This document shows, one piece after another, positions 8,609-24,247 of a stretch of 37,042 nt of DNA. Made by a program: the position numbers and the translations under genes. Origin of the DNA: a virus; IMG/VR virus record IMGVR_UViG_3300028920_000159, positions 1 to 37,042 of that record, one strand, 5' to 3'. How positions within the stretch are numbered: the stretch's first letter is position 1; each line of letters starts with the position of its first letter. The notes under the pieces were generated by a model. The model searched no databases, was not told where the DNA came from, and was given only the letters and a program-made list of their open reading frames with translations.

Positions 8609-10252
8609 ATGCCAACGTACATATTCAGCGAAGGCCCAACAGGCGATCAGAGCGGAAACCACAAAGATACTCGAATATATGAGTACTTTAAGGCTCGCGC
8701 GTACGGCGGAGAGGCATATATCGAGATATCCAACGAGCCAGGGATAGACTCGTTCGGGCTTCTGCGGTTCGACGTTTCGGCAATTGACGGTTCAGAATCT
8801 GTAATCAGTGCGACACTGAGGCTGTACCTCGCCTACAATGGTTTGTCAAGCGATAGAAGCGTTGGTGCTCGTCCGCTAAGTACCGACTGGGGCGTTTCGG
8901 CCACGAGCGAGGGAAGCTCAGAAAACACGGCCACGGGCGGACAGGCAACATGGGACAACGCGTTTGACAACAACGGAAGCGATACCGGTTGGGCGGACGG
9001 CGAGGACGCTGGTTTTTCAAGTAACGACTATGGCGCTGAAGAAGATTCCGTAACCATGGGCAGCGCCGACGCTGTCGGCACAGCCTACGATTTTGATATC
9101 ACAAACATGGTGAAGGCGTGGGTCGCTGATTCTGACGACAACCACGGCGTACTGTTGCTCCCTGCCGGGTTTATGCAGGAGATTGTGCGCCTGGACTCGC
9201 AGGAATCAGCAACAGCGGCGGAACGTCCGATACTCACGGTTGAGACCGTTATCAGTTCAGCCTCCGAGTCGGCATCTGAGAGCGCCAGTGAGAGCGCTTC
9301 CGAGTCAGCGAGTGAAAGCGCTTCTGAATCTACTTCCGCTTCGGCTTCCGAATCGGCTTCACCATCAACGAGCGAGTCGGCGAGCGAGTCAACCTCGCCG
9401 AGCGCTTCTGAGTCGGCAAGCCCGTCAGAAAGCGAATCCGGCAGCGAAAGCGCGAGCGAATCAACATCAGAGAGCGCCTCGGAGTCGGTCTCTGAATCTG
9501 CTTCCGAAAGCGCCTCTGAGTCGACCAGCGAATCCGCTTCTGAAAGTGCTTCGGAGTCCGGAAGTGAAAGTGCCTCAGAGTCGGCCTCTGAATCAGCAAG
9601 CGAATCGGTGAGCGAGTCCGCGAGTGAATCGGCTTCTGAGAGTACCAGCCCTTCGGCGTCTGCAAGCTCCTCGCCAAGCGCGTCTGAGTCAACCAGCGAA
9701 TCCGCTTCTGAAAGTGCTTCGGAGTCCGGAAGTGAAAGTGCCTCAGAGTCTCTAAGCTATTCTGGCTCCACCTCGGCCTCGGCCAGTGCATCGCCAAGTG
9801 CACCGCCGACCTCGTGGAAAACGATCGAGGCCGTGCTGTACGAGACCCTGACGGCCGACACTGCCCTCGCGCACTATATCAGCGATTTCGAAGGCGCCCC
9901 GGCGATATTCAGCGACCTGGCACCCGAAGAGGTCAAAAACACGGACGTGTACATGGTGTTCCGGGCCGACCACCTGGGAGATGAGAATATCGCCGCCCTG
10001 GCGTTCAACATCTACATCGACATCTATGCCCGAAGCGCCAGCCGCGCGACGGTGCGCAAGATTGTGCGGCGCGTGAAGCTCGTGCTCGATCACGTGGCTT
10101 TGCGCGATCCGGATTGTGAATTTGACACCATTCGTCTGTACCTGTTCGACGCGGGCGCCGTGCCCGAGGGAGGAGAGTCTCAGAAGGTTCACTATAACCT
10201 GCAATTCACAGCTCGCGCCGGCCGCAAGGCGTGGGCCTCGCATCTCACATAG
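8609..10252 (+). CDS. DNRLRE-like / serine-rich stalk / tail completion fusion
   Basis: 547 residues in three parts. Residues 1 to about 214 resemble a DNRLRE-type beta-sandwich: FGLLRFDVSAI, SVISATLRLYL, then YDFDITNMVKAWVADSDDNHGVLLL and a final PILTVE. Residues about 216-400 are almost pure Ser/Ala/Glu with Pro, Thr and Gly (SASES, SPSTSES, GSES units). Residues about 403-547 (from WKTIEAVLYETLTADTALAHYI) look like a DUF3168/gp17-type tail completion protein, which the position between gp10-like and tail tube genes demands. Known family members are about the size of the C-terminal part alone, so the first 400 residues appear to be an added, virion-displayed adhesin and stalk. The N-terminal segment has more AT-rich codons than its neighbours. 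aagggaagaacggga precedes the ATG. Confidence 0.8.
   Translation: MPTYIFSEGPTGDQSGNHKDTRIYEYFKARAYGGEAYIEISNEPGIDSFGLLRFDVSAIDGSESVISATLRLYLAYNGLSSDRSVGARPLSTDWGVSATSEGSSENTATGGQATWDNAFDNNGSDTGWADGEDAGFSSNDYGAEEDSVTMGSADAVGTAYDFDITNMVKAWVADSDDNHGVLLLPAGFMQEIVRLDSQESATAAERPILTVETVISSASESASESASESASESASESASESTSASASESASPSTSESASESTSPSASESASPSESESGSESASESTSESASESVSESASESASESTSESASESASESGSESASESASESASESVSESASESASESTSPSASASSSPSASESTSESASESASESGSESASESLSYSGSTSASASASPSAPPTSWKTIEAVLYETLTADTALAHYISDFEGAPAIFSDLAPEEVKNTDVYMVFRADHLGDENIAALAFNIYIDIYARSASRATVRKIVRRVKLVLDHVALRDPDCEFDTIRLYLFDAGAVPEGGESQKVHYNLQFTARAGRKAWASHLT
9254..9811 (+). repeat. serine-rich SES repeat tract (first copy)
   Basis: About 185 codons of Ser-Ala-Ser-Glu-Ser type repeats. 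Serine codons of both kinds (TCN and AGC/AGT) are mixed, so the repeat is regular in protein but scrambled in DNA. The exception is an exact 58-base direct repeat: 9525-9582 is identical to 9693-9750, offset by 168 bases (56 codons), which points to an in-frame duplication. Confidence 0.9.
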
Positions 10253-10270
10253 CACAGCAAGGAGTGCAAA

Positions 10271-10600
10271 ATGGCGGAAATCACTGTTCAGCAGATCTCA
10301 ACCGATGGACTCGAGGCGGCCGCTGGCACAGCCGCAACGGCTGCAGGCGACACGTTCAAGAACAATGGCCGGACGTTTATCATTGTCGAGGACACGGGTA
10401 CCACAGCCCCGACCGTCACGATCAACAGCCTGGTCAACTGCAGCCAGGGCCACGACCACAATCTCAGCGTGGCAGTCCAGTCGGGCGAAATGCGTTATAT
10501 CGGACCGTTCCCGAAGGATCGTTTCAACGACTCGGACGGAATGGTTACGGTGACGTACGACGACGACACCGACGTGACGATTTCGGTTTTCTCACTCTAG
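10271..10600 (+). CDS. small virion protein, unrecognised
   Basis: 109 residues with an aaggagtgcaaa ribosome site. Beta-rich: TFIIVEDTG, PTVTINSLVNCSQGHDHNLSVAV, GEMRYIGPFPKDRFND and GMVTVTYDDDTDVTISVFSL. The IGPF....(F/Y)ND..G.V.VTYD....(V)...V..L ending recurs in small proteins next to tail tube or head decoration genes in phage genomes. A structural role is inferred from this and from its position between the tail completion and tail tube genes. Confidence 0.75.
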   Translation: MAEITVQQISTDGLEAAAGTAATAAGDTFKNNGRTFIIVEDTGTTAPTVTINSLVNCSQGHDHNLSVAVQSGEMRYIGPFPKDRFNDSDGMVTVTYDDDTDVTISVFSL

Positions 10601-10636
10601 CCTCGCGCCTGGAACGCGCGCAAAGGAGCCAAGACT

Positions 10637-11206
10637 ATGGCGACACATGGCATAACAACCAACACGTACAAGCGCTTTGTCATTGACAGCGGCGCAGTGT
10701 ACAAAAACTGGGGTGAGGCCGGAGAAGCACTCCTCGGCGCCACTCGCGGCGGCAACGTTTTCAAGATCGAAACCGAGCTCCGCATGATGGAAGTCGACGG
10801 AGCCCGGGGACCGGTCAAGGGCGGGAGGCGCATCACCAACGTGCTCGCGACCATAACGGCCAACTTCATCGAGGTGTCCGAGGAAATGCTTCTGCGGGCC
10901 CTTCCGGCTGCGGTGGCTGCGGACTATCCGGTGGCGCCGGCAACCAAGACGCACGACCTGATCACCAGGTCGACGGACGTCGCGGACGCCGACTACCTGA
11001 CGAACATTGCAATCGTCGGGGAGTCGACGTACTCGAGCACGAACAACATCGTCGTCGTGCTTGAGAACGTGCTGTCGGATGGCAACCTCGAGGTATCCTT
11101 CGCGGACAAGGACGAGTCGGTGATTGCTGTTACGTTTACCGCTCACTACCTCCCGAGCGCCATCGACACCGAGCCGTGGAAGATATACAACCCGGTGATC
11201 GGATAG
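10637..11206 (+). CDS. major tail tube protein (probable)
   Basis: 189 residues. It lies exactly where the tail tube gene is expected: after the tail completion gene and immediately before the frameshifted tail chaperones and tape measure. The layout fits a tube protein: an N-terminal arm (TYKRFVIDSGAVYKNWGE), the GATRGGNVFKIETELRMMEVDGARGP strand and loop region, then strands in ITNVLATITANFIEVSEEML and NIVVVLENVLSDGNLEVSF, ending with AVTFTAHYLPSAIDTEPWKIYNP. That (V/I)TF.AHY......PWKI ending is common in siphophage tail tube proteins. An aaaggagccaagact ribosome site precedes the ATG. Confidence 0.75.
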   Translation: MATHGITTNTYKRFVIDSGAVYKNWGEAGEALLGATRGGNVFKIETELRMMEVDGARGPVKGGRRITNVLATITANFIEVSEEMLLRALPAAVAADYPVAPATKTHDLITRSTDVADADYLTNIAIVGESTYSSTNNIVVVLENVLSDGNLEVSFADKDESVIAVTFTAHYLPSAIDTEPWKIYNPVIG

Positions 11207-11238
11207 CCTGATCACCACAACGTCAAGGAGCTGAAGCA

Positions 11239-11736
11239 ATGAGCGACACCGTCACACAGTCAGGTGAGAAGCAGTACACTATCCACCCCCTGAAAAAGAA
11301 GGATCAGAGGGTGGTCGCGGCAATGTTTGGCAAGCTCGCCGACGAGTTCGACGAGCCTGCCATTCGCCGTATTATCTCGAGTGGGTTCAGCGACGACGAG
11401 GGCAAAGCGGACAAGGAAACCGCGGACGACCGGAAGGCCAGGCTCGTGCATGTGTTCTTCGAGCTGTTCCGCAAGTGCCTGACAAAGCTCGCTGTCGACG
11501 CCGAGGAGTGGTTGGCGTCACTGATCGGCGTGAGCGTTGAGGAGTACCAGGAGCTGCCGATCGACATTGACGTCCAGATCCTGAATCAGGTCAAGGAGGC
11601 GCCCGAGGTAGAGCGTTTTTTTACTGGAGCATTGCGGCTATTCAGCGCGACGCAGGCGTTAGACAAAGCCTTGTCTCAGTTGAAAAGCTCGTACGCTTCC
11701 GCCTTCGGATCACAGCAGGAGAGCTCGACGGACTGA
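11239..11736 (+). CDS. tail assembly chaperone, zero-frame product (gpG-like)
   Basis: 165 residues. Acidic and helical, positioned between tail tube and tape measure as lambda gpG is. It has a short N-terminal strand (KQYTIHPLKKKDQRVVAAM) followed by helices. Codon 127 onward reads TTT TTT within the slippery run at 11616-11622. Ribosomes that do not slip continue 38 codons to the TGA at 11734-11736. Chaperones of this kind coat the tape measure and recruit tube subunits. The acidic helical content and the frameshift site support the assignment more strongly than any residue motif. Confidence 0.85.
   Translation: MSDTVTQSGEKQYTIHPLKKKDQRVVAAMFGKLADEFDEPAIRRIISSGFSDDEGKADKETADDRKARLVHVFFELFRKCLTKLAVDAEEWLASLIGVSVEEYQELPIDIDVQILNQVKEAPEVERFFTGALRLFSATQALDKALSQLKSSYASAFGSQQESSTD
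11616..11622 (+). promoter_or_regulatory. -1 frameshift slippery site T TTT TTT
   Basis: Seven consecutive T's occur in the phase required for a -1 slip: codons cgT TTT TTT act. After a one-base slip the next codon is tac at 11622. That frame stays open for 131 codons to 12017 and encodes a sensible helical protein. U UUU UUU is an established -1 slippery heptamer. The location in the overlap of the two chaperone genes is the textbook one for tailed phages. Confidence 0.9.
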
Positions 11737-12017
11737 CATTCGAGGAATTCATCTTTACCGCTGACATGATCGAGGAGGAAAGGGCGGCGCGGTTCAAGGA
11801 CGACATGACCTGCGCCGCCTTTGTTGGTTGGCAGATGGGACGTTTCCAGGGGAGCATCAGCGAGCATACGACGTTTCCGAAGTACCTCAAGACGTGCGGG
11901 CTGCTCGACGGTCCGCCGCCAATGACGGAAGAAGAGCGCGCGGCAATGGTGGCCAAGGCCATGGAGAAGGCAAGCAAGATCAGAGCGGCATTTCAACCGG
12001 AGCGGGTGAATGAGTAG
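11622..12017 (+). CDS. tail assembly chaperone, -1 frame extension (T part of gpGT-like)
   Basis: This is the -1 frame half of the frameshift product. The 128 codons of 11239-11622 joined to these 131 give a 259-residue fusion. The extension reads YWSIAAIQRDAG, then RITAGELDGLTFEEFIF, then ADMIEEERAARFKDDMTCAAFVGWQMGRF, and ends MTEEERAAMVAKAMEKASKI before the stop. No stop occurs between the slip site and 12017. The first internal ATG (11766) lies 144 bases downstream of the slip and lacks a ribosome site, so independent translation is unlikely. The last 8 bases overlap the tape measure start. Confidence 0.87.
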   Translation, partial: YWSIAAIQRDAGVRQSLVSVEKLVRFRLRITAGELDGLTFEEFIFTADMIEEERAARFKDDMTCAAFVGWQMGRFQGSISEHTTFPKYLKTCGLLDGPPPMTEEERAAMVAKAMEKASKIRAAFQPERVNE

Positions 12018-14445
12018 AGAAGTATTCAGTCTGATCGGGCGGATTCGTACCGAGGGGTTCGGGGCGGTTAAGAAGGAACTGAGCGTCCTCGACAAGAACA
12101 TCACGAAGGCCGCGAACAGAATCGACAAGTTTGGCCGCGACGTTGGCAAGATCGGCGTCAATATGGCCAAAATGACGGCACCGATCGCCGCGCTCGGGGT
12201 GGCTGCATATAAGAGCGTCGAGCTCGTCACCGATCTGAATGAGACCATCTCCAAAACCGGCGAGATATTCGGGGACGCTGCCGGACAGATTGACGACTGG
12301 AGCAACTCCGCCGCGCAGGCGTTTGGCATGTCGAAGCAGCAGGGCATGGATGCCGCAAGCACGTTCGCGATATTTGGGAAGTCGGCCGGGCTGTCGGGGG
12401 ATCGTCTGGCCACCTTCTCGACGAACTTCGTGCAGCTGGCTGCCGACTTTGCATCATTCCACAACGCGAAGCCGGAGGAAGCCATCACGGCGATCGGCGC
12501 CGCCCTCCGGGGAGAGAACGAGCCGATACGCCGGTTCGGTATTCTACTCGACGATGCAAGCATGCGCGCCGAAGCTCTGAAGCTCGGGCTCATTGAGACC
12601 ACGAAGCAGGCGCTCACGCCGCAGGAGAAGGTCCTGGCGGCTCAGTCGCTCATATACAAGCAGTCGGCCGATGCACAGGGCGATTTCCTGCGCACCTCCG
12701 ACGGCCTGGCAAACCAGACGCGTATCCTGAAGGCCGAGATCATAGACATGGCCACAGCGTTCGGTCAGGCGTTCCTCCCGGCTGCTCAGCAGGTCATGAC
12801 CCTGATCCGAACCAAGCTGCTGCCGGCAGTGAAGGGCGCCGTCGAATGGTTCACGAACCTGTCCCCCGAACTCAGAAACACCATGATAATGTTCGGCGGG
12901 ATTGCGGTCGCTATCGGTCCGCTGCTGATTGGTATCGGGAAGCTGATTGGGCTGGTTAAGACGCTTTGGGTGACTGTGCAGCTGCTTAATGCGACAATGT
13001 TGGCGAACCCGATCGGGCTCATTATCACACTGATCGGACTGTTGGGAATTGGTGTTGTTGCTCTGGTGAAAAACTTCGACACTGTCAAGGCGGCCTTTGT
13101 TGATCTGTTCTGGGAGATTCTATATGCCACGCGTCAAACGGTGAGCTATGTCCGCCTGGCGCTTTTTAAGGTCGTGGCGTGGATGATCGGGGTTGCCAAA
13201 GTTGCGGCGAAGGTCATACCAGGGATGGCCGATAAACTCGCATACCTCGAGGCACAGATGAAGTCGTTGGCTGCTGCTGAGGATGAGCAGATCAAGCGTC
13301 GGCGACGATTCCGGGCCGAGTCAAAGGCAGCGGCACAGGACACCGAAAAGCTCGCCAAGGCAGTCGAGAAGGCCAAGGAGGAAACGAATAAGTACTCAGC
13401 CACACTTCCCGAGCTGATCAAGACACGGAAGCGCGACACCAAGGCAACAGACGACCAAGCGAAGGCCGAGAAGAAGCTGTCCGAAGAGCGGGCGAAGTTC
13501 TCGGAGGGGTGGACTGACAAGCTGCGCGAGCAGATCATGACCCGGTCGCAGTTGCTCGAATGGGAGTACAGAGACGCCCTTTCACGTGCTGAAGAGCTCG
13601 GAGCAAGCCGGCAGGACATAGAGCTGTACTATCACATACAGCGCCTGAGACTGGCCGAGGAGGAGGCCAACGAAAAGGCACGTCTCGCACAGAAGGAAGT
13701 CGACGACCGCAAGGAAAAACTTCAGCTTACGAAGAGCCTGGCCATGCAGGCGGTCGATCAGATATTCGCGCTTATGGCCGCCGCGACAGACAACGAGATC
13801 GCCCGTATTGACCAGGCAGCCGAGAAGCGCAAGGCCGCGATCGACGAGAGTGTCCTCGGCGAGGAGGAGAAGGAACGGCAGAAGGCCGCAATCGACGAGC
13901 AGGCCGAGAAGAAGAAGCGCAACCTCATGCGCGAACAGGCCAAGCGCGACAAGGCCGCGGCGTACTTCGCCGCCATTATCAACACGTTCCAGGCCGTCAG
14001 TAAAGCCCTGACGCTCGGGTTCCCGCTCGGCCTGGTCATGGCGGTGCTGTTCGGGGTTCTCGGGATTGCGCAGGTCGCCGCAATAGCTGCCGAGCCCCTG
14101 CCACAGCTCGCCCGTGGTGGCGTTGTGAAGCGAAGCCAGGGCGGGACCGCGCTCGTGGCCGGCGAGGGTGGCGAGGACGAGATGATCCTTCCCATGCAAA
14201 CGGGCGTCCGTCGAGTCGTTGGCGACGTTGTAAACGGCATACGCAGCGCTTTGGCGGGGCCTGAACTTCCGGGCTCCCTCGCGCACGGACGGCCGGCTAT
14301 GGGCGGTGTCGGTGCCGGCAGTGGCGGCGGGGGGGTCCACTTCCATATCGGGACGCTTATTGCTGATGATAGCGGTATGCGAGAGCTGGAGCGACGGCAG
14401 CTGAAGTTCAGAAACCAGGAGAAGATCCGGAAGGGTGAAATCTGA
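12010..14445 (+). CDS. tail tape measure protein
   Basis: 811 residues, the largest helical protein in the window. N-terminal coiled coil (KKELSVLDKNITKAANRIDKFGRDVGK), then a tape-measure core rich in Ala/Gly with DAASTFAIFGKSAGLSGDRLATFSTNFVQLAADFASF, typical of phage tape measure domains. Hydrophobic segments occur around residues 295-325 and 335-360 and near residue 665-690 (FPLGLVMAVLFGVLGIAQVAAI). A long charged coiled coil lies between about 410 and 640. The end has the family-like QLARGGVVKRSQGGTALVAG and GEGGEDEMILPM segments. Using about 1.5 angstrom per residue, known for siphophages, the tail would be near 120 nm. It overlaps the chaperone stop by 8 bases. Confidence 0.93.
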   Translation: MSREVFSLIGRIRTEGFGAVKKELSVLDKNITKAANRIDKFGRDVGKIGVNMAKMTAPIAALGVAAYKSVELVTDLNETISKTGEIFGDAAGQIDDWSNSAAQAFGMSKQQGMDAASTFAIFGKSAGLSGDRLATFSTNFVQLAADFASFHNAKPEEAITAIGAALRGENEPIRRFGILLDDASMRAEALKLGLIETTKQALTPQEKVLAAQSLIYKQSADAQGDFLRTSDGLANQTRILKAEIIDMATAFGQAFLPAAQQVMTLIRTKLLPAVKGAVEWFTNLSPELRNTMIMFGGIAVAIGPLLIGIGKLIGLVKTLWVTVQLLNATMLANPIGLIITLIGLLGIGVVALVKNFDTVKAAFVDLFWEILYATRQTVSYVRLALFKVVAWMIGVAKVAAKVIPGMADKLAYLEAQMKSLAAAEDEQIKRRRRFRAESKAAAQDTEKLAKAVEKAKEETNKYSATLPELIKTRKRDTKATDDQAKAEKKLSEERAKFSEGWTDKLREQIMTRSQLLEWEYRDALSRAEELGASRQDIELYYHIQRLRLAEEEANEKARLAQKEVDDRKEKLQLTKSLAMQAVDQIFALMAAATDNEIARIDQAAEKRKAAIDESVLGEEEKERQKAAIDEQAEKKKRNLMREQAKRDKAAAYFAAIINTFQAVSKALTLGFPLGLVMAVLFGVLGIAQVAAIAAEPLPQLARGGVVKRSQGGTALVAGEGGEDEMILPMQTGVRRVVGDVVNGIRSALAGPELPGSLAHGRPAMGGVGAGSGGGGVHFHIGTLIADDSGMRELERRQLKFRNQEKIRKGEI

Positions 14446-14813
14446 TGGCGCTCAACGACATATATCTCGGTGAAAGCGGCTCTGAGGTCCTTCTCAGCGC
14501 GTTTGCTCGCGAGTTCACACAGAGGCGTATCGAGGTGTCCAGGGAGGACAGGACGGCGTCAGGGCGCCTTGTGAAGGACATTAGGGCAATTAAGCTCGGG
14601 TTCTCCATTTCGTACGACATGATCAGCCATACCGACCTCACGGTGATTGCCGACCTGTACGACCTCGAGGACGAGCTCAGCCTGATTGTGACGCGTCCCG
14701 ATTTCAGCCAAGACACATACACCGTGCTGCTTAAGCCCTTCGACCAAACCCGCGTAAAGAGCGTCGGGTGTGGGTATTGGGGCGGGGTAGCCCTGGAGCT
14801 CGAGGAGACATGA
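14445..14813 (+). CDS. minor tail protein, unrecognised
   Basis: 122 residues whose ATG shares one base with the tape measure stop. Mixed alpha/beta: RRIEVSREDRTASGRLVKDIRAIKLGFSISYDMISHTDLTVIADLYDLEDELSLIV, then TYTVLLKPFDQTRVKSVGCGYWGGVALELEE. A strand-rich protein with an EDRTASGRLV...K..F.ISY.......V....L...D..L...V pattern directly after the tape measure suggests a tail-tip component such as a reduced distal tail protein. The assignment is from position and strand pattern only. Confidence 0.7.
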   Translation: MALNDIYLGESGSEVLLSAFAREFTQRRIEVSREDRTASGRLVKDIRAIKLGFSISYDMISHTDLTVIADLYDLEDELSLIVTRPDFSQDTYTVLLKPFDQTRVKSVGCGYWGGVALELEET

Positions 14814-15110
14814 ATGGAAGGCGCGGACGGGCTGACTCTGACTATCGGTGCTGCCGGCCTTGTGGCCGTCGGGGGGGTTGTCGTGAAACTCGTTGAGGCA
14901 ATCGTCGCATGGATGGCAAAGCGGAACAACAACGGGAACGGGACGCTCAAGGGGTACATCAGCCGCGAGGACTGCCGTGATAGTATCGGCAAAATCGAGG
15001 CCCGTTTCGACCGGACCGACACGCGGATCGGGGAGCTGCATGATAAGGTCAATGACACAAACGAGAAGCTCGCCGAAATGCGCGGGTACCTGGGAAGGCA
15101 TCTAGGATAG
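14814..15110 (+). CDS. membrane-anchored coiled-coil protein (holin-like candidate)
   Basis: 98 residues starting directly after the previous stop. Residues about 6-34 form one hydrophobic segment (LTLTIGAAGLVAVGGVVVKL and the following VEAIVAWM). A polar NNNGNG hinge follows, then a heptad-like helix (CRDSIGKIEARFDRTDTRIG and ELHDKVNDTNEKLAEM). One membrane span plus a soluble coiled coil is seen in small phage lysis proteins, but here the membrane part is N-terminal, unlike XhlA. It is the best single holin candidate in the late region. A membrane tether for the tail-glycosylation enzyme downstream is an alternative. Function uncertain. Confidence 0.65.
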   Translation: MEGADGLTLTIGAAGLVAVGGVVVKLVEAIVAWMAKRNNNGNGTLKGYISREDCRDSIGKIEARFDRTDTRIGELHDKVNDTNEKLAEMRGYLGRHLG

Positions 15111-15118
15111 GGGGAACA

Positions 15119-17290
15119 GTGAGCAGGGTTTCGGTTATCATAGCCGGGCGAAATGAGAAGTACTTTCAACAGACCGTCGATTCCGTTTTGGAGTCGGCGG
15201 TCGGTGACGTTGAGGTCGTCGCCGTTGTCGACGAGGAGGAGTACTCCGGAGAGCTCGCAACAGACGACCCGTACGCGCGCCACAGCCTGCACTCTGACGA
15301 CCCGCGCGTGCGTATCATTCGCCTCGAGAAGGCTATCGGCCAGCGGGCCGGGTACAACCTGGGCGTCCGGGAGTCGACCGGCGAGCACGTCATGAAGATC
15401 GACGCGCATGCCCTGCTCAGCAAGGGTTTCGACGAGGAACTCAAGAACTGCTGCGGAGACAAGGACGTTGTTCTGCCGGAAATGCGCCGGCTGAACGTTC
15501 GGGAGTGGGCACCGAAGCGGGGCGGGGAAGCCATACACATGTACTTCGGGCTCGATATGTACTGCCATTACTGGCGGGACAGAACGAAAGCGAACACCGA
15601 GAAGTGCCCGGAGATCATGACCGGACAAGGATCGTGCTGGTTCTGTACCCGGGAGTGGAATGATCGTATCGGTCTCCTCGACGAGGGCGTCGGGTCCTGG
15701 GGGAACGTCGGAATCGAGATATCGCTCCGCACGTGGCTGCAGGGTGGTCGGCAGATATGTTGTACGACAGCCTGGCAGGCTCACTATTTCCGCAAGGACG
15801 ACGGCGGATTTCCGTATTCGCTGACCGGGCGGGACGTTGCGCGCGCGCACCGGTACACGCGTGAGCGGTACTTTTTCAACGATGCAGCCTTCGAACACCA
15901 GACCAGGCCGTTCGGCTGGCTGGTTCGAAAGTTTCAACCGCCAGGATGGGAGGCGTATCTCGTGGACTCGTTCAAGTCGCCCCGGGTGATAGTGTACTAC
16001 ACTGACTCGCAGCTGCAGCCGGAGCTCGCCAACGCTGTCAGGAAGCGGATCAAGAAGGTGTGCGGGCCGATCCCGATTATCAGCGTATCGCAGGAGCCGC
16101 TCAAGTTCGGGCGAAACGTCTGTATCGGGGAGCAGCCGCGCAAGTATAAGAGCGTGTACGAGGCCCTCCTCGCAGGCGTGAAGGCGGCGCCGGAGGGGTC
16201 GATCGTGTACCTGCTCGAGCACGACGTGTTCTATCACCCGTCGCATTTCGCGTTCCTGCCGGCCGAGCACGGGGTTCTCTATTTCAACGACAACCGGTAT
16301 TACTATCACCTGGGCTGTGACACGTTCGACCTTGCCCGGGGGAAGTGTGCGCTCTCGCAGTGTGTGGCATGGCGCGATGATATCATACAGCACGCCGAGG
16401 AGCGGCTCGCGGTTGCCGGCGACGACATGACCGAGTACTTCGAAACCTGGCAGAAGCGCAGCAGCCTCAAGACTCAGGGGTTCAGCTCAGATCGGCCGAA
16501 CGTCGATATCCTGCACGGGCAGAACCTGACGCTCCGGGGCAAAATGAAGAACGAATATATCCGCGGCAAGCGCAAGGGAATAGCGAACCTTCCAGGATGG
16601 GGCCGGGCTCCGCATTTCCGCAGCGTGACCGGGTACCGCAGGCAGGAGTCGAAACCGGCGCCGGCCAAGAAGGCGGTCTCGGTGAGGACGGGCGAGGTCG
16701 ACGTGGCGCAGGTACTGCAGCGCAAGTTCCGCAAGCTACTCCCGCAGGTGTCTCCGGTGCGCGCCCGGAAGGTCGGGCGGTCCTGGCTGCCGGAGCTGTT
16801 TCGAACCTGTCAGTTCACGAAGGGCGCCGAGATAGGGGTCCGTAAGGGCGAGTTCTCTGAGCTGATCTGCAAAGCAAACCCGACCGTTGAGCACATGTGC
16901 GTCGACCTCTGGCGGCCGTACTATATCCACAACAGCCAGAAGAGACACGACTCGCACCTGGCAGAAGCGAAGCGCCGGCTCAAGCCGTACCGGGTGCAGT
17001 TCGTGAATATGCCGAGTATGGAAGCCGCGCGAAACGTGGAGGACGAAAGCCTCGACTATGTGTACATCGACGCCGATCACCGGTTCGACTTTGTCATGGA
17101 GGACCTGATCGCGTGGGGTCGAAAGGTCCGGCCGGGCGGGATCGTGAGCGGTCACGACTACTATCGTTTCCGCAATGCGGGCGTGGTCGATGCTGTAGAC
17201 CTGTATACTCGGATGCATGGTGTGCAGGAATGGTTTGTGACGGATGAGAAAGAATCGAGCTTCTTCTGGGTGAAGCAATATGGCTGCTGA
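15119..17290 (+). CDS. three-domain glycosyltransferase / methyltransferase
   Basis: 723 residues from GTG 15119 after a taggggga ribosome site. Domain 1 (about 3-285) is a GT-A transferase: VSVIIAGRNE start, DAH at 95-97 (DxH metal motif), WGNVGIEISLRTWLQGG at 194-210 and AHYFRK at 221-226. These match the Gal/GalNAc motif and metal histidine of polypeptide GalNAc-transferases (GT27) in order. Domain 2 (about 288-530) has a separate YLLEHDVFY acidic motif near 367-369 and may be a second transferase. Domain 3 (about 545-720) is a class I SAM methyltransferase: GAEIGVRKGEFS loop near 568, YVYIDADHRFDFVMEDL near 647, and RPGGIVSGHDYY. It lies in the tail operon, overlapping the tail hub gene by 11 bases. 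I infer protein or virion glycan synthesis in the host cytoplasm. Confidence 0.85.
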   Translation: MSRVSVIIAGRNEKYFQQTVDSVLESAVGDVEVVAVVDEEEYSGELATDDPYARHSLHSDDPRVRIIRLEKAIGQRAGYNLGVRESTGEHVMKIDAHALLSKGFDEELKNCCGDKDVVLPEMRRLNVREWAPKRGGEAIHMYFGLDMYCHYWRDRTKANTEKCPEIMTGQGSCWFCTREWNDRIGLLDEGVGSWGNVGIEISLRTWLQGGRQICCTTAWQAHYFRKDDGGFPYSLTGRDVARAHRYTRERYFFNDAAFEHQTRPFGWLVRKFQPPGWEAYLVDSFKSPRVIVYYTDSQLQPELANAVRKRIKKVCGPIPIISVSQEPLKFGRNVCIGEQPRKYKSVYEALLAGVKAAPEGSIVYLLEHDVFYHPSHFAFLPAEHGVLYFNDNRYYYHLGCDTFDLARGKCALSQCVAWRDDIIQHAEERLAVAGDDMTEYFETWQKRSSLKTQGFSSDRPNVDILHGQNLTLRGKMKNEYIRGKRKGIANLPGWGRAPHFRSVTGYRRQESKPAPAKKAVSVRTGEVDVAQVLQRKFRKLLPQVSPVRARKVGRSWLPELFRTCQFTKGAEIGVRKGEFSELICKANPTVEHMCVDLWRPYYIHNSQKRHDSHLAEAKRRLKPYRVQFVNMPSMEAARNVEDESLDYVYIDADHRFDFVMEDLIAWGRKVRPGGIVSGHDYYRFRNAGVVDAVDLYTRMHGVQEWFVTDEKESSFFWVKQYGC

Positions 17291-20200
17291 TTTTGTACAT
17301 GCGATATTCAAACGCGGCGATAAGATAACCGCTCCGGGGAAAGAGTATCTCGGGATCAAGGATGGCATGCTGGTCACGTGGCACGACCCGGACGTGTACG
17401 ATCCCAAGTTCTCCGCATGGATGCAGCGCGTTTTTTTCTGTGTCAAGCTAAAGCGCGATCTGCTTCCGAAACTGATCGCGGGTGTTCAAGAAAGCCAGAA
17501 CGCGGCCGACGGGGCCGTCGACAAGAAAACCTATCTCGCGCGCATGGCCGCAATCGACATTGCGGAAGTCGAGAGAGTGGCGGGAATTTCGGGCCTTTCC
17601 GCTGACATGGCATCTGCCGAGATCATTCCCGAGCTGGATCTTACAGCAGGTAGCGAGAAGCTGATCAAGGTGCCGACACTGCAGGCCCCGACAGTCCGCG
17701 ACGTGATGAGTGTTTCGAGTGGAGCGTATGGCGTCGGAAGCGGGGACGACTACAGCGACTGGATCAGCGCGAGAGCCGATATCGCCAATCTCACAAACGA
17801 TCTGAGCTTCACTCAGTCGAGCGCCTTCACCCTTAATGGTGGCTCGAACATTTCGGAGTCTCTCAACGGGCATGCGCTGACCTTTGATTCTGACACGCCC
17901 CCGGCTGGCGATCCGACTTCTGGACTCATTACGTCCATAGATTACGAGGGGTATCTATTCGGCGATTTCCAGGAGGGGGCGGGCGAGACAGTATACGAGG
18001 GGCTCTACTGGAAAAGAATCCTCGCCGGTTCAAACGAAGACGCTTCTTGTATCACTACGTCGAGCGTGAGCACCGGATTTGACCTGGTTATCAGGAAGTG
18101 CATGATAGACGGCAACGGGCATATCGGCTGCGGAGTTCGTGCCGCGGATGCTGATGTGACACACTACATCTACAACAATGTGATCTGGAGTTTCGACGGC
18201 GCGAGCGGCGACGCATACGGTCTCCACCTGGACGCTCTCCACTCCTCGTCTGTGATTGAGAATAACACGATATACAGCATTGGCGGGACGAGCTCTGCTG
18301 GTATCGATGCTGAAAACAACGCATGCACGATTCGGAATAACGCAGTATACGACTGTACAAGCTGTTTCCTGGCCGTTGGATCGGCAACCGGAAACAACAA
18401 CGCGGCAAGCGATACCACAGGAGAAGATGGGGACTTCTCGAGTGGATCAGGAAACCAATCGTCGCGCAGCGCCGCGACTGATTTTGAAAGCACCACTGAC
18501 ACCGTCGCTGCGTTCCTGAACATTGCCAGCGGTGGCGGTCTAAAGTATGCAGGAAACGCAACCATACTCGGTGGTAACACTACCGGCATACGCGGGAACA
18601 CCCGGCCGGTTTCCGGTGAAAATCCCTCAATCGGAGCCGCAGAAGTCAATCCGGGCTCCTCTTCTGCTTCTGCCAGCGAAAGCGGAAGTGAAAGTGCGTC
18701 GCCCTCAACATCAGAGTCGGCCTCTGAAAGCAGCTCGCCCTCGGCTTCAGAATCAGCCAGCCCGAGCACGTCTGAAAGTGCAAGCCCGTCAGCTTCCGAG
18801 TCCGGCAGCGAGTCCGCCTCAGAATCAGGCAGCGAGTCAGCAAGCCCCTCGGCAAGCGAGTCGGGATCTGAGAGTGCTTCCGAATCTGGCAGCGAAAGCG
18901 CGAGTGAATCGGGCTCAGAGTCCACCTCCCCCTCGACCAGCGAGTCGGCAAGTGAGAGCCCCTCAGAGAGTGGCTCAGAGTCTGCCTCAGAGAGTGCCTC
19001 GCCGTCGGCTTCTGGTGGCGGTTCTGCTTCCGAGTCGGCCAGTGAGTCGGCATCATACAGCGGGTCAGCATCAGAGAGCGCGAGCGAGTCGGCCAGCCCG
19101 TCCGGGTTCCCGACGTTTGACGAGGCAGCGGCGCTCACCGTGCGCAAGTGGGTCGGGCGTGTTACGGTCTATTGGGGCGGGGCCCTGCTGGACAACATCG
19201 AAGTCACATGGCCGGGGACCGTCGCAAACTGGCTCATGGACGAGGTCCCGCAGCTTCCCCCACAGATAGCCAACGGGGTGGACACAGTCGCGTACAAGTG
19301 GTTCCGGTGCGACGGGGTGGCCACGCTCGACGACATGGTCCTGGCGCCCGGAGACGAGGCCGCAGCGGCTCTCTACGAAATGGGATGGTGGGGCGGCACG
19401 TTCGCCGGTGCCCTGGGGGCATTTACCGACCCGCAGTACCTGCGGCTCCGCCTGGTCGAGCAGGCCGTGGCGACTGTTACGGTTGCCGGCGACGCAGCCC
19501 TCGGCGAGTACCCTGTCGACTTCACGATCAAGGTGTTCAGCGGTGTGGGCGGTTCCGTGCTCGAGGACGAGGTCGCGGTGACAGGAAACGCTCAGGTCAG
19601 CCGCGACGTATCTGTCGGGCCGGTGTCGGAAGCTACTGCCGTACTGCTGACGATCACGAAGTGGAGCGACGCCGATGCGGTGATCAAGATATCGGAGCTC
19701 TTCACCTCGGCTTCCGCGGTGTACGATGGCGACGAGATCATGACGATGAACGTGTTCGAAGAGAACGAGATCAAGAACGCAACGCTTCCGACCGGGAACA
19801 TTGCAGCGAATGAGCTCGAGCTCGCTCTGAACAACGTCGACGACAAGTTCTTTCCGGCCAACGACCTGGCGCCGTATCATGCCATGGTCCGGAAGAACCG
19901 CAAGATCGTCGCCGAGATCGGGCTTGTGATACCCGACGGCGGCGGGACCGAATACATTGCCATGGGCACGTACTGGAGTGGGGACTGGAAGGTCTCCGAG
20001 GGCGGCACAACCGCTTCGACCACGGCAATGGACCGCCTCGGCCGGCTGCAGAAAATGACGTTCTCCACCAGCGAGGTCTATTTCGACTACACGATCGGAC
20101 AGCTGATCGACGTGGTTATGACCGCGGCACGGCTGCAAATGTTCGATCTTGAGTACGAAGTCGACGCCGAGCTGTACGGCGACGACTACACAATACCCGT

Positions 20201-21113
20201 TGCGTGGTTCCCGAAGGTTTCGTTCTTCGAAGCCCTCAACACGCTGTCGGGCGCGTGCCTCGGGTCTATCTACGTGGACCGCCAGGACGTTATCCAGTGT
20301 GAAGCCCCGGCCGAGATCGGCGCGTACGAGTACGAGCTCACTGCTGACGACTATTACGAGCGCCGGCAGCCGGAGGAATCGGAGAGCGTCGAGAACCGTA
20401 TCGAGGTCACAACGCAGCCGCTGCGCCTGGACCCGGACGAGGGCGAGGGCGTCGAGGTGTACCGGTCCAGCGAACCGCTCACCCTCGAGGTCGGCGAATC
20501 GCTCGAGAAGCTGATTGAGTACAGCGACAAGCCGGTCGACGGCGCAGTCTTTTCCGTCGAAGCAACAGACGGGTCCTCTTTCGTCGGTTCGGTAACGGTC
20601 AACAACTCGTATGCGTGGGGAGCTGAGCTCACCGTTGAGTGCACGACGGCCGGAGAATTCGAAATCGTGGCGGAGGGCGACCTGTACACGGTCGATGGGA
20701 AAGAGGTCGTCGTGAAGATCGACAACGACAGCCAATTCCAGTACGGCGAGCAGCGGTACGCCCTGAAGGACAACCCGCTGATCCAGACCGAAGCGCTTGC
20801 CACCAAGATCGCGGAGACGCTTCTGGAGACATACCGGGACCCGTCGCGCGACATAGAACTGAACTGGCGCGGGAACCCGAATGTCAAGCTCAACACGGTG
20901 ATCCGCGCGCCGGAGTACGTCCGCGGCGCCGTCAGCAATAAGTCTGATTTCGTGGTATTCAAGCAGAAAACGATCTTCGACGGGACACTGTGCGCAACGC
21001 TCAGCGGTCGACGCGTGCGCGAGACGAATCTGGTTGTCGTCCAGGACACGGACGGCAGCGGATACGATATTCAGGATACGGACGACAGCGGGAATATCGT
21101 CTGGCAGGACTAA
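17280..21113 (+). CDS. beta-helix / serine-rich stalk / tail hub fusion
   Basis: 1277 residues. Residues 1-110 are a mixed domain. About 125-455 read as a right-handed beta-helix: repeated short turns such as THYIYNNVIWSFDG, SSVIENNTIYSIGG, ACTIRNNAVYDCTS, ending RGNTRPVSGENPSIGAAEV, the usual end of pectate-lyase-like helices. About 458-608 are Ser-rich SES/SPSTSES/GSES repeats. About 610-1277 look like a phage tail hub or tail-associated structural protein: NVFEENEIKNATLPTGNIAA, ELELALNNVDDKFFPANDLA, then MGTYWSGDWKV and the FFEALNTLSGACLGSIYVDR domain. The order after tape measure and before fibre genes fits a baseplate hub. The beta-helix could bind or cut a surface polysaccharide. No catalytic residues were identified. 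Confidence 0.8.
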   Translation: MAADFVHAIFKRGDKITAPGKEYLGIKDGMLVTWHDPDVYDPKFSAWMQRVFFCVKLKRDLLPKLIAGVQESQNAADGAVDKKTYLARMAAIDIAEVERVAGISGLSADMASAEIIPELDLTAGSEKLIKVPTLQAPTVRDVMSVSSGAYGVGSGDDYSDWISARADIANLTNDLSFTQSSAFTLNGGSNISESLNGHALTFDSDTPPAGDPTSGLITSIDYEGYLFGDFQEGAGETVYEGLYWKRILAGSNEDASCITTSSVSTGFDLVIRKCMIDGNGHIGCGVRAADADVTHYIYNNVIWSFDGASGDAYGLHLDALHSSSVIENNTIYSIGGTSSAGIDAENNACTIRNNAVYDCTSCFLAVGSATGNNNAASDTTGEDGDFSSGSGNQSSRSAATDFESTTDTVAAFLNIASGGGLKYAGNATILGGNTTGIRGNTRPVSGENPSIGAAEVNPGSSSASASESGSESASPSTSESASESSSPSASESASPSTSESASPSASESGSESASESGSESASPSASESGSESASESGSESASESGSESTSPSTSESASESPSESGSESASESASPSASGGGSASESASESASYSGSASESASESASPSGFPTFDEAAALTVRKWVGRVTVYWGGALLDNIEVTWPGTVANWLMDEVPQLPPQIANGVDTVAYKWFRCDGVATLDDMVLAPGDEAAAALYEMGWWGGTFAGALGAFTDPQYLRLRLVEQAVATVTVAGDAALGEYPVDFTIKVFSGVGGSVLEDEVAVTGNAQVSRDVSVGPVSEATAVLLTITKWSDADAVIKISELFTSASAVYDGDEIMTMNVFEENEIKNATLPTGNIAANELELALNNVDDKFFPANDLAPYHAMVRKNRKIVAEIGLVIPDGGGTEYIAMGTYWSGDWKVSEGGTTASTTAMDRLGRLQKMTFSTSEVYFDYTIGQLIDVVMTAARLQMFDLEYEVDAELYGDDYTIPVAWFPKVSFFEALNTLSGACLGSIYVDRQDVIQCEAPAEIGAYEYELTADDYYERRQPEESESVENRIEVTTQPLRLDPDEGEGVEVYRSSEPLTLEVGESLEKLIEYSDKPVDGAVFSVEATDGSSFVGSVTVNNSYAWGAELTVECTTAGEFEIVAEGDLYTVDGKEVVVKIDNDSQFQYGEQRYALKDNPLIQTEALATKIAETLLETYRDPSRDIELNWRGNPNVKLNTVIRAPEYVRGAVSNKSDFVVFKQKTIFDGTLCATLSGRRVRETNLVVVQDTDGSGYDIQDTDDSGNIVWQD
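18651..19106 (+). repeat. serine-rich SES repeat tract (second copy)
   Basis: About 150 codons of the same Ser-rich repeat type as the tail completion fusion, with more Gly and Pro (SGSES, SPSTSES, SPSASES). Serine is encoded by mixed TCN and AGY codons. It separates the beta-helix from the tail hub part. Two tracts of the same unusual composition in different structural genes of one phage suggest a shared origin or gene conversion. Confidence 0.88.
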
Positions 21114-22409: not shown

Positions 22410-22937
22410 GTGCACTACTGGACACTTGCGATCGGCGATATTCCGGAAGAGCTGCAGCCCATAGTTGATCACAACGTGGCTAAATGGGACATGGAGATCG
22501 TCAGGCTCGACGCGATCACCGACCTCGAGGGGATCGCGCTGGTCGAGGAGCTGACCCGCGTCTCGGATATCTACCGGCACGAGCGGGCAGCCAATAACAC
22601 AGACTACGCCGAGGCGTACCTCGACCTTGATTGCAAGCTCCTGATGTCTCTCGACGAGTACGAGCCCGAGGCCCTGCCGTACTGGCCGGAGGAGACCACG
22701 CTGAGCGCCGACAAGCAGCCAGATACGTTTATCATGATCGTGTCGCCGGGCGCCGCTCAACGGGCGCTTGACATTGCCGCCGAGAAGGGCGGGGCGTTTA
22801 ATACCGGTGCGTATTGCTGGCCTCGTCGCGTGTGGCGTGAGTTCAAGGGTATCACGCAGATCGACCCGTCATGCTACGAACACGGAATGTATTCTGTTAA
22901 GAGACGCCGAGCGCTGCAGGCCGCAGCCAAGGCATAA
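22410..22937 (+). CDS. small GT32-like glycosyltransferase candidate
   Basis: 175 residues from GTG 22410, with an aggaggaag ribosome site. Residues 64-82 (TDYAEAYLDLDCKLLMSLD) resemble the core GT32/Och1 motif, in which a YLDLDV segment carries the metal-binding DxD (here D72 and D74) and is followed by a hydrophobic stretch and LD. The N-terminus, with its IP and W...IVRLDA segments, is also compatible. The protein is shorter than typical GT32 enzymes and the classic double glycine before the DxD is missing. It could therefore be a minimal or degenerate transferase. It sits among tail appendage genes, as the three-domain glycosyltransferase does. Confidence 0.5.
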   Translation: MHYWTLAIGDIPEELQPIVDHNVAKWDMEIVRLDAITDLEGIALVEELTRVSDIYRHERAANNTDYAEAYLDLDCKLLMSLDEYEPEALPYWPEETTLSADKQPDTFIMIVSPGAAQRALDIAAEKGGAFNTGAYCWPRRVWREFKGITQIDPSCYEHGMYSVKRRRALQAAAKA

Positions 22938-23213: not shown

Positions 23214-23681
23214 ATGGCAGAATGGACCGCACCGAAGGTCGATTGGGGCGCAACCGACGCCGTCCCTCACACCGAGCTGAACAAGAACGGCGAAAACGTG
23301 CAGTGGCTGCGCAACACGATGGCCATCACCGGGTCGACTGTTGGGCGCAGCATGAGCCCCACGTCGGAGAGCACGCGCGACATGTGCATGATCACCGTGC
23401 CCGCGAATACTGTGCTCAAGCTCAAGCATTGGCGGTTCTTCTTCGACAACGAGGACGACATTCGCCTGCAGGTCGAGGTGAAGTATCGGGCCAGCGGCGC
23501 GGTTCAGTATGACAAAACCTCAACCGCGCAGTACGACGACGACGAGCTGGACGAGACCGTTATCAACACGACCGGCACCCCCCAGGATATGACGATTTGG
23601 GTCACTGTGCACAACATCAACAACTTCTCCACCCGAACAGTTAGCGGCGGCTGGTGGCTGCTGTTCGCTCTCGAGAGCTGA
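23214..23681 (+). CDS. small tail appendage protein (probable)
   Basis: 155 residues; ggagg overlaps the end of the previous gene, 8 bases before the ATG. The start (WTAPKVDWGATDAVPHTELN and KNGENVQWLRN) has the W....DW.....V....LN...EN...L pattern found at the N-terminus of many phage tail fibre or appendage proteins. The C-terminal two thirds is a beta-sandwich-like series (LKLKHWRFFFDNEDDIRLQV, then EDETV and MTIWVTVHN) ending in an aromatic GGWWLLFAL. It precedes the lysis genes, a usual place for the last virion gene. Confidence 0.65.
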   Translation: MAEWTAPKVDWGATDAVPHTELNKNGENVQWLRNTMAITGSTVGRSMSPTSESTRDMCMITVPANTVLKLKHWRFFFDNEDDIRLQVEVKYRASGAVQYDKTSTAQYDDDELDETVINTTGTPQDMTIWVTVHNINNFSTRTVSGGWWLLFALES

Positions 23682-23695
23682 CAAGGGGATCTGCA

Positions 23696-24247
23696 ATGCT
23701 CAAGGTGGCTATCTATCCCGGACACGTCGGCAAGGACAGCGGCGCGATCGACACGACCGACGAATACGCCGGCGACGAGTTCCACGCCATCGAGGCGGTT
23801 GTGACGTGGGGCATTGCGGACAAAGTGGCCGGACTGCTCTGCTGCATGGGCATTGATCACACGATCGGGATCGGCTCGTTTGACAACCGGATCGCCGATA
23901 CCCGCGATTGCACCATGGGAGTATCAATTCATGCGGACTCGTTCCACGATCGAACGGCTCACGGGTTCCACGTGATACACTACCCTGGCAGCGTTGCGGG
24001 CGGTTTGCTGGCCGACTCGATCGACGAGTGTCTCTCTGTGTTCGGGCACCGGAACCGCAAGCCACACGCGCGGCGTGACCTGGCAATTCTGCGCGACACG
24101 TCGTTTCCGTGTGCCCTGGTTGAGTGTGGTTTCATCAGCAACCCCGAGGAAGAGGCTGTGCTCATGCTGCGCACCAAACAGTACCGCCTCGCGTGGGCAA
24201 TCGTCGGCGGGATCGTGCGGTACGTATTTGGGAAGGAGAAACCATGA
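23696..24247 (+). CDS. N-acetylmuramoyl-L-alanine amidase (Amidase_3)
   Basis: 183 residues from ATG 23696, chosen because an aaggggat ribosome site precedes it; a longer frame runs back into the previous gene. Zn-dependent LytC/AmiC-type amidase: first ligand His in IYPGHVGKDSGA (residue 9), second Glu in FHAIEAVV, third His in GVSIHADSFHD, and the catalytic Glu in CALVECGFISNPEEE near the C-terminus. It cleaves the bond between muramic acid and the peptide stem. There is no signal peptide or separate wall-binding domain, so export through a holin or direct virion use is implied. The stop overlaps the lipase start. Confidence 0.92.
   Translation: MLKVAIYPGHVGKDSGAIDTTDEYAGDEFHAIEAVVTWGIADKVAGLLCCMGIDHTIGIGSFDNRIADTRDCTMGVSIHADSFHDRTAHGFHVIHYPGSVAGGLLADSIDECLSVFGHRNRKPHARRDLAILRDTSFPCALVECGFISNPEEEAVLMLRTKQYRLAWAIVGGIVRYVFGKEKP

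Follow-up and report, generated by a model that had tools for sequence, protein, structure and literature searches.

Stalk genes and the enzyme between them

The stretch of viral DNA analysed here (referred to as the window; 37,042 nucleotides, IMG/VR record IMGVR_UViG_3300028920_000159) carries two plus-strand genes for proteins with alternating-serine blocks, denoted stalk proteins A and B, and between them, on the same strand, the gene of a three-domain enzyme (15119-17290), whose open reading frame (ORF) shares 11 nt with the start of the second stalk ORF. Protein A (8609-10252) is composed of a DNRLRE-like N-terminal domain (E 9e-21), a Ser-x-Ser block (9257-9799; residues 217-397, 181 aa) and a C-terminal region with weak likeness to tail-completion gp17 (Tail_completion_gp17, E 0.018, under the cut-off). 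Protein B (17280-21113) has an N-terminal region followed by a Ser-x-Ser block (18657-19103; residues 460-608, 149 aa) and a C-terminal tail-protein region; it matches phrog_13879, a family of unknown function, with E 9.5e-45 and a minor tail family with E 1.3e-7. Serine occupies 100% of the alternate positions in the block of protein A and 98.7% in that of protein B, with Ser and Thr together accounting for fractions of 0.55 and 0.54, which makes both blocks candidate acceptors for O-glycosylation. TCN and AGY serine codons are intermixed (59/33 in the A block, 48/28 in the B block), indicating that serine is apparently maintained at the protein level and that the blocks are not simple DNA repeats. 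A preliminary description of the locus had reported two repeats of 150-185 residues and a three-domain enzyme lying between them and overlapping the second protein; this held, including coordinates and motifs. Its designation of proteins A and B as structural held only in part, as their place in the virion is inferred from weak or partial family matches and from the position among tail genes.

In relatives, one of the nine stalk proteins scanned against PHROGs matched a tail family. Of 21 stalk proteins inspected, the majority have a long non-repeat N-terminal region, in one case with two Laminin_G-type matches. Stalk proteins of the core family (see below) share the C-terminal motif PIIS..GIHS..MGG, which was rejected as a general stalk motif, since none of 82 stalk ORFs of the wider family contained it with the pattern used. 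The C-terminal end of one stalk (L268) resembles the motif by eye, though it was missed by the pattern.

The enzyme comprises a GT27-like domain 1 (15119-15973), a second domain (15974-16639) and a methyltransferase (16724-17287). Domain 2 is predicted by the structural model (pLDDT 92) to be a second, divergent GT-A domain with an E-H-D motif; it matches GT-A folds with a best E of 1.5e-6 in Foldseek and a best Z of 13.0 in VIA (rmsd 3.1, 169 aligned residues), with chondroitin synthases among its best fold matches. Domain 3 belongs to the Methyltransf_24 family (Pfam match at residues 571-681) and differs from one relative to another. No PDB relative of domain 2 or of the methyltransferase was found by sequence. 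The preliminary description had proposed that the glycan is extended by domain 2 or by a GT32-like protein encoded at 22410 and then capped by methylation. The fold of domain 2 is compatible with the former role, sugar transfer itself being inferred, while the GT32-like assignment was not confirmed: the 22410 protein matched nothing in Pfam at E 0.1, nor did BLAST find a counterpart in the loci compared. Capping by methylation was weakened, as the methyltransferase is missing in one relative (L002) and in both wider-family enzymes scanned and is thus not a general component.

Domain 1 is related to polypeptide GalNAc-transferases

Domain 1 is related by sequence, fold and motif to the polypeptide GalNAc-transferases of family GT27, the enzymes that in animals begin mucin glycosylation, without a phylogenetic tree behind this statement. 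In a PDB sequence search, the first nine of 20 rows were polypeptide GalNAc-transferases (best E 7e-9; the ninth row being 8uhv, TgGalNAc-T3), and with a profile built from 15 relatives the best match reached E 4.4e-13; a profile of the wider family reached a best E of 5.1e-9 against the PDB. GalNAc-transferases were also top-ranked when the predicted model was searched with Foldseek (E 1.2e-13), and the first 29 of the 50 entries shown in a VIA fold comparison were all GalNAc-transferases (Z 21.0-23.9, rmsd 2.8-3.4, 257-273 aligned residues), the next entry following at Z 17.4. VIA lists are limited to the best 50 entries, so that unlisted families are not excluded. The check on the grouping of domain 1 that the preliminary description had proposed thus places polypeptide GalNAc-transferases first by both sequence and fold.

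Three motifs carry the resemblance. D95-A-H97 (15401-15409) aligns with the DxH metal motif, W194-G-N-V-G-I-E...W-L-Q-G-G210 (15698-15748) is the counterpart of the GalNAc-transferase WGGEN...GG segment with GGEN changed to GNVG, and A-H222-Y-F-R (15779-15793) corresponds to the third metal ligand, which is His359 in GalNAc-T2, together with the loop Arg. The metal ligands of GalNAc-T2 are Asp224, His226 and His359 (PMC4432651), and with D95, H97 and H222 aligned to all three, the test for GT27 metal ligands is met. In an alignment of 15 members, D95-A-H97, W194-E200, S202-L207, G209, G210, A221, H222, F224 and R225 are invariant, with variation at positions 201 (I/V), 208 (Q/C) and 223 (Y/W). 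The replacement of DxD by DxH has been given as an example of a family-confined change, described for GT27 and GT60, both of which O-glycosylate Ser/Thr of polypeptides (PMC7185993). The test for the WGGEN donor signature is not met, as the window enzyme and its core relatives carry WGNVG; in the wider family, 68 of 79 ORFs have QQG or SQG after WG. Two distant proteins (L005 and L017) retain WGGEN. The 79 wider-family ORFs with domains 1 and 2 all contain a D-x-H-[CAS] string, and 72 of them W[YF]AH.

Taken against the known enzymes (GalNAc-T1, T2, T4, T7, T10 and T12, PGANT9, TgGalNAc-T3), domain 1 shares the GT-A fold, the DxH with a third His, the Trp of WG, the E-x-S-x-R-x-W-x-x-GG segment and HxFR. 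Unlike GT27 members, the phage enzyme has GNVG (core) or mostly QQG/SQG (wider family) in place of GGEN and lacks the ricin-type lectin domain: Pfam gave only GT2-type and methyltransferase matches, and residues 286-507 are modeled as GT-A. It also differs in being phage-encoded and in having another GT-A domain in the same chain, followed in most of the core family by a methyltransferase. The match to GT27 made in the preliminary description through DxH, WGxxxxExSxRxWxxGG and AHYFR therefore held except for the change of GGEN to GNVG. Because of this change we use the label GT27-like without naming a donor sugar; GalNAc as donor, as implied by a mucin-type initiation, is not shown.

Genetic linkage of enzyme and stalk genes

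A single-sequence scan of viral contigs matched three stretches, none of them a relative, and the core enzyme family was recovered from viral contigs by motif pattern. A wider family comprises 456 viral stretches, of which the best 80 loci were read. No match to domain 1 was obtained by tblastn at E 0.1 in 50,697 phage records, a collection that includes Mycobacterium phages, and two wider-family proteins likewise gave no match in phage records. In cellular genomes, the core profile returned 14 stretches, none a relative, and the motif pattern returned two stretches from about 85,000 genomes without a full relative (the match in L059 spans 21 residues only); these negatives cover the core profile and the motif pattern and not the wider-family profile.

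Enzyme and stalk genes are tightly linked in many viral contigs. All 17 other viral contigs with a core enzyme carry a Ser-x-Ser gene on the same strand, adjacent or one gene off; one gene intervenes in G009, and in G008 (L043) a 97-residue Ser-x-Ser ORF with 31 hits lies at the contig start and runs up to the enzyme. Among the best 80 wider-family loci, 70 contain a Ser-x-Ser ORF defined by at least 15 overlapping hits (66 at ≥40 hits); when the loci are clustered at 90%, the count is 62 of 72. The nearest such ORF lies on the strand of the enzyme in 70/70 cases with a median gap of 36 nt. Three of the 80 loci (L218, L219 and L224) had been reached via a stalk scan, and 67/77 remain when they are excluded; L238 lies exactly at the 15-hit threshold. 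For comparison, a broad scan with a Ser-x pattern gave 76 loci, of which 9 fulfilled the same criterion.

The linkage was also followed from the stalk to the enzyme in three scans. The first (31 stretches; Ser-x-Ser ORF with ≥15 overlapping hits, the strand being plausible as coding) yielded 19 stalk contigs after L066, an apparent antisense reading of an Asp-rich gene, and L061 and L063 (<15 hits) had been dropped. Domain 1 and/or domain 2 were present in 17 of the 19 (in G032 only domain 2, located where the contig ends), and the two without enzyme were G030, a fragment of 5.4 kb that breaks off within the stalk, and G033 with a 55-residue stalk. The broad scan (at least 120 stretches, with 76 new loci examined) gave 12 loci with ≥15 hits at a 60-residue ORF cut-off; four of these were taken as real stalks (L103, L111, L135 and L150), two of them with the enzyme, and the other eight, which resemble homopolymer or wrong-frame repeats, had none. 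In the two real stalks without enzyme (G040 and G042), the contig breaks off within the stalk gene. Of the four enzyme-less stalk contigs of these smaller scans, three are thus fragments of 5-10 kb that are truncated in the stalk gene, the fourth being G033 with its short stalk.

In the third scan (at least 120 stretches, 79 new loci), the enzyme was found in 29 of 45 stalk contigs versus 0 of 28 control loci without stalks (Fisher p 3.5e-9). L339, L353 and L373 were left out because another locus of the same contig was tested, and L343, L351 and L361, which have few hits or repeat a single residue, were placed in neither group. The control loci come from pattern scans of the same type and are not random tail modules; scanning with the major tail protein as a control gave no relatives. 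Sixteen of the 45 stalk contigs had no enzyme-profile match, and five of these 16 are ≥20 kb. One of the five, G084, contains a different sugar-enzyme cluster upstream of the stalk, and the enzyme domain profiles gave nothing in the remaining four (G069, G070, G074 and G098), other transferase families lying outside that search. The co-occurrence that the preliminary description had suggested as a check was thus borne out in that the genes travel together, though not in every stalk contig.

A putative module for stalk O-glycosylation

These data likely reflect a phage module that recurs, has apparently not been described before and attaches O-glycans to the phage's own stalks, as the preliminary description had proposed. 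That reading is supported, while the catalysis, the donor sugar, the sites of attachment, the sequence of steps, the function of the stalk and the presence in the virion are all inferences. The enzyme at 15119-17290 would be a protein O-glycosyltransferase dedicated to the neighboring alternating-serine stalks of the tail region. Domain 1, a metal-dependent (DxH...HxFR) and probably retaining GT-A enzyme, would transfer the first sugar from a nucleotide donor to stalk Ser/Thr, domain 2 would most likely add the next sugar, and domain 3, where present, would probably methylate the glycan. The sugars may stiffen and protect the otherwise floppy Ser/Ala/Glu chain, turning it into a rod that holds the N-terminal domain off the virion, by analogy with the glycosylated stalks of Gram-positive serine-rich-repeat adhesins.

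In these adhesins (GtfA/GtfB/GtfC systems), the stalk likewise alternates Ser with Ala, Val, Thr and Glu, the glycosylated rod projects a binding region, and dedicated transferases are encoded nearby, with extra transferases that vary (PMC6973325). The alternating-serine acceptor repeat that characterizes such systems is present in both stalks of the window. Unlike the adhesins, the phage stalks are tail-region and not cell-wall proteins, and they have a GT27-like enzyme next to them in place of a GtfA/GtfB pair; a Pfam scan covering 20 ORFs of the window revealed no such priming pair, the remaining window being outside the scan. The accessory Sec export and LPXTG anchor of the bacterial systems would not be expected for a virion protein. 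Phages have been described as not usually glycosylated, with mycobacteriophages as the reported case (PMC11256854). The earlier statement that no phage system of this exact form is described must accordingly be read with the qualification that phage-encoded virion glycosylation as such is already known from mycobacteriophages (Freeman et al. 2023, quoted in PMC12363180, PMC11256854 and PMC12619734), where phage transferases (Che8 gp110, Corndog gp38, Myrna) glycosylate virion proteins (PMC12363180, PMC12619734). Their glycans are located at the C-termini of capsid and tail-tube subunits, and a Ser-x-Ser stalk is not mentioned in the passages cited here.

Several other readings were weighed. 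Domains 1 and 2 could form a polymerase of the chondroitin/heparosan-synthase type, making a polysaccharide that is free, lipid-bound or on the host surface, in which case the linkage to stalks would reflect nothing more than a shared position in the tail module. Tandem GT-A domains as in chondroitin polymerase, the presence of K4CP and heparosan synthase among matches of the two-domain model and of chondroitin synthases among the best matches of domain 2 speak for this. However, domain 1 aligns with GalNAc-transferases at Z 21.0-23.9, whereas the two-domain model aligns with the polymerases at Z of about 17 with rmsd 15-20; domain 1 also has DxH, known from GT27 and GT60, which act on proteins, and it is the stalk gene itself that is linked, closely and always on the same strand. 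We consider the polymerase unlikely. Still less probable is that the enzyme modifies host glycans or lipids for serotype conversion or superinfection exclusion, with the stalks as ordinary unmodified linkers: serotype-modifying phage transferases are known (PMC12619734), but the gene lies inside the tail block and co-occurs with stalks (membrane anchors and flippases were outside our searches). Modification of nucleic acid, by glycosylation of hypermodified bases, is very unlikely: phage transferases that glycosylate DNA are known (PMC12619734), but the best matches are protein O-glycosyltransferases and the gene is placed among tail genes and stalks.

A further possibility, less likely than not but compatible with stalk O-glycosylation as the preferred explanation, is that the glycans serve mainly as an antigenic or protease shield of the particle instead of stiffening an adhesin. 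Glycans on capsid and tail tube protect mycobacteriophages against antibodies (Freeman 2023, quoted in PMC12363180), but the long non-repeat N-terminal regions, one with Laminin_G-type matches, fit a stalked adhesin.

The recurrent pair of stalk and enzyme, if borne out, would make virion glycosylation a common strategy, and it would offer a clear acceptor together with a clear initiating enzyme for testing. The module could also be a source of GT27-type phage polypeptide O-glycosyltransferases for bacterial glycoengineering, and it could bear on the origin of GT27. By a narrow margin, we also lean towards a bolder reading, namely a large family of uncultured tailed phages with a mucin system of its own, in which GT27-like initiators, fused or linked extenders and optional methyltransferases would build phage-specific O-glycans on serine stalks of up to ~980 residues. 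If true, viruses would have their own counterpart to the mucins of animals and the serine-rich adhesins of bacteria, and this might indicate that GT27-type initiation is ancient and widespread among phages.

The window enzyme and its domains

The viral record that forms the window is 37,042 bases long and has a tailed-phage gene order (terminase, portal, protease, HK97-type capsid, connector, major tail protein, tape measure, amidase, lipase and DnaB helicase), and its two stalk proteins and the enzyme are situated in the tail block. The enzyme (15119-17290, plus strand) comprises 723 residues in three domains, of which the first was assigned by Pfam to Glycos_transf_2 (E 6.3e-12) and the last to Methyltransf_24 (E 3.3e-15). 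A search of domain 1 against PDB sequences returned polypeptide GalNAc-transferases (GalNAc-Ts, family GT27) in the top nine of 20 rows (best E 7e-9; the ninth is 8uhv, TgGalNAc-T3), and a profile built from 15 relatives matched its best GalNAc-T at E 4.4e-13, so that homology is shown. Domains 1-2 were modelled with AlphaFold2 (mean pLDDT 81); for this predicted fold GalNAc-Ts ranked first in Foldseek and, after VIA re-alignment, made up the top 29 of 50 entries (Z 21.0-23.9), other transferases following from Z 17.4 on.

The motif correspondence is likewise shown. In the alignments D95-A-H97 falls on the DxH motif, H222-Y-F-R on HxFR and W194 on the Trp of the donor signature WGGEN. In GalNAc-T2 the metal ligands are Asp224, His226 and His359, with Trp331 as a key catalytic residue (PMC4432651), and the DXH motif and conserved His are given likewise for a snail GalNAc-T (PMC6994419). 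DxH in place of DxD is a variation limited to GT27 and GT60, both polypeptide Ser/Thr O-glycosylation families (PMC7185993). Because domain 1 has GNVG in place of GGEN, it carries no Asp or Glu at the site matching the xED base of inverting enzymes, which we infer, drawing on PMC7185993, to be compatible with a retaining enzyme. Since residues near the donor are also altered, we do not claim GalNAc as the donor. A lectin domain was not found in the window enzyme.

For domain 2 a search of PDB sequences gave no relative (a single chance-level row, E 1.2); this domain was modelled as a GT-A fold with a pLDDT of 92. Its best VIA rows were scattered over families (chondroitin synthase, B4GALNT1 and others, Z 11-13), and the model therefore predicts a divergent transferase of no clear family. 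Its E-H-D motif is invariant in 15 members of the core family, the close relatives of the window enzyme, and present in 72/79 ORFs of a wider family of more distant enzymes. Domain 3 found no match among PDB sequences. The match to Methyltransf_24 is only partial in the loci L006 and L013, the enzyme of L002 ends without this domain, and it is missing in both wider-family enzymes scanned. A free-standing Methyltransf_24 gene (L032:12521-13144, contig G009) lies between stalk and enzyme, additional to the enzyme's own methyltransferase domain.

Linkage of enzyme and stalk genes

Viral contigs were searched with the degenerate pattern W-G-x4-E-x-S-x-R-x-W-x2-G-G, which yielded 22 stretches: 16 encode enzyme relatives (43-71% identity), two encode distant proteins keeping WGGEN and four are chance matches; a profile scan added one further contig with a core enzyme. 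Domain 1 had no match at E 0.1 in 50,697 phage records, 53 of which gave distant matches to the methyltransferase domain alone. Nor did two motif-limited scans across the genomes of 84,980 cellular species recover a full relative. All 17 core enzyme contigs carry a same-strand Ser-x-Ser gene beside the enzyme, with one small intervening gene in G009; near-identical contigs are included (G007/G011/G012 and G018/G039). The two distant GT27-like proteins (L017:6838-8388, on the same contig as L042, and L005:2487-3206) retain the full WGGEN and DPH; no Ser-x-Ser ORF is present in L042 or L005, and a 117-residue Thr/Gly-rich ORF stands at the end of L042, about 6 kb away.

The wider family was reached with an alignment (A4) of enzymes from more distant stalk phages, characterized by DAH, WG..G with mostly QQG, W[YF]AH[ML]FR and, in the three having domain 2, EHD. 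This query found relatives encoded in 456 viral stretches, the best 80 of which were used for locus counts. A Ser-x-Ser ORF was present in 70/80 loci at a threshold of at least 15 hits and in 66/80 at 40 or more, compared with 9/76 loci (at least 15 hits) from a broad Ser-x pattern scan, a sample in which such repeats are over-represented. The count was 62/72 after clustering at 90% identity and 67/77 without three loci known beforehand. The nearest stalk ORF shared the enzyme's strand in 70/70 and lay downstream of the enzyme in 60; the median gap was 36 nt (within 100 nt in 39/70 and within 1.5 kb in 55/70). Nine of the ten stalk-less loci contain an ORF with domains 1 and 2, and in eight of these nine at most 3.3 kb of contig is left downstream; L286, with such an ORF and 5.6 kb downstream, still shows no stalk. 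In the tenth, L297, the enzyme is cut by the contig end, and a stalk gene lies elsewhere on the same contig (L354 on G089). At least two domain-1 ORFs occur in 71/80 loci.

Linkage is shown from the stalk side as well. A first scan with the pattern (SASE)x4 gave 31 stretches; 19 contigs had a Ser-x-Ser ORF of at least 15 hits, and 17/19 encode domain 1 and/or 2, ten of these 17 being already known via the enzyme motif. From a scan with a second stalk pattern, 45 stalk contigs were taken for testing, and the wider enzyme family was found in 29/45 versus 0/28 stalk-less contigs of the same scan (p 3.5e-9). Among stalk contigs of at least 20 kb the proportion was 21/26. As five such contigs are without the GT27-like enzyme, the stalk is not always accompanied by it. 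In one of them, G084 (L417:6007-10799), a different cluster lies upstream of the stalk gene, coding for an RGP-family protein, two GT2 proteins and an epimerase, and is possibly a second way of glycosylating such stalks; the remaining four yielded neither domain 1 nor domain 2, in searches that did not cover every transferase family.

Architecture of the stalk proteins

In protein A (8609-10252), which also shows a DNRLRE match, the Ser-x-Ser block spans 181 residues with Ser at 100% of alternate positions; in protein B (17280-21113) it spans 149 residues with Ser at 98.7%. The residues separating the serines are chiefly Glu and Ala, also Gly, Pro and Thr. Both stalks use TCN as well as AGY serine codons; a switch between the two needs more than one base change, and it is thus likely, as an inference from sequence alone, that the serines are maintained at the protein level. 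Across 21 stalk proteins read, total stalk length ranges from 71 to 983 residues and Ser+Thr content from 48 to 56%. The majority carry a long N-terminal region outside the repeat, and C-terminal ends vary from group to group; one of eight proteins scanned with Pfam showed two Laminin_G-type matches.

Several further features were observed. The stalk proteins of L028, L029, L030, L032, L041 and L083 are among those with a short hydrophobic C-terminal motif like PIIS..GIHS..MGG.I.SG, which is possibly a virion anchor; the pattern used did not find this end in 82 wider-family stalk ORFs. In several phages (L221, L224, L226, L291 and others) NKYSxxGNTYTDKY-type C-terminal repeats lie downstream of the Ser-x-Ser block. 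A second type of stalk gene, coding for about 220-450 residues, also recurs (L227:562-1599, L242:4434-5432, L230:1443-2456 and others). In its product a Ser-x-Ser block, often with SFP or SPSFPDV at its end, takes up everything after a conserved N-terminal part (like FELK..LP..TQ.EIDRI.AI); neither of two scanned proteins had a Pfam match. In the window, a class 3 lipase gene (24124-24918, E 2.3e-24) overlaps the end of the amidase gene (23654-24247), and the pair may represent a lysis region.

A putative stalk glycosylation module

The phage stalk proteins follow the same plan as serine-rich-repeat adhesins. In these adhesins the stalk serines alternate with Ala, Val, Thr or Glu, and the stalk is a rigid O-glycosylated rod extending the binding region (PMC6973325). 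Glycosylation of serine stalks is established in Gram-positive bacteria, and phage-encoded virion glycosylation has been described for mycobacteriophages (Freeman et al. 2023, as quoted in PMC12363180, PMC11256854 and PMC12619734). No paper linking phage serine stalks with GT27-like enzymes was found in the open-access literature searched, which leaves out most subscription journals and every bioRxiv preprint; within that scope the pairing is new, and the two kinds of glycosylation are already known.

All chemistry of the module and the presence of stalk proteins in virions are inferred. Domain 1 would prime Ser/Thr of the stalk, domain 2 would extend the primed sugar, and in some lineages the methyltransferase would cap the glycan; priming at other sites or the attachment of more sugars may fall to additional domain-1 genes. 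The glycosylated stalks would form stiff, extended, protease-resistant arms. For the stalk-enzyme module itself, the case that it recurs in many uncultured phages is strong.
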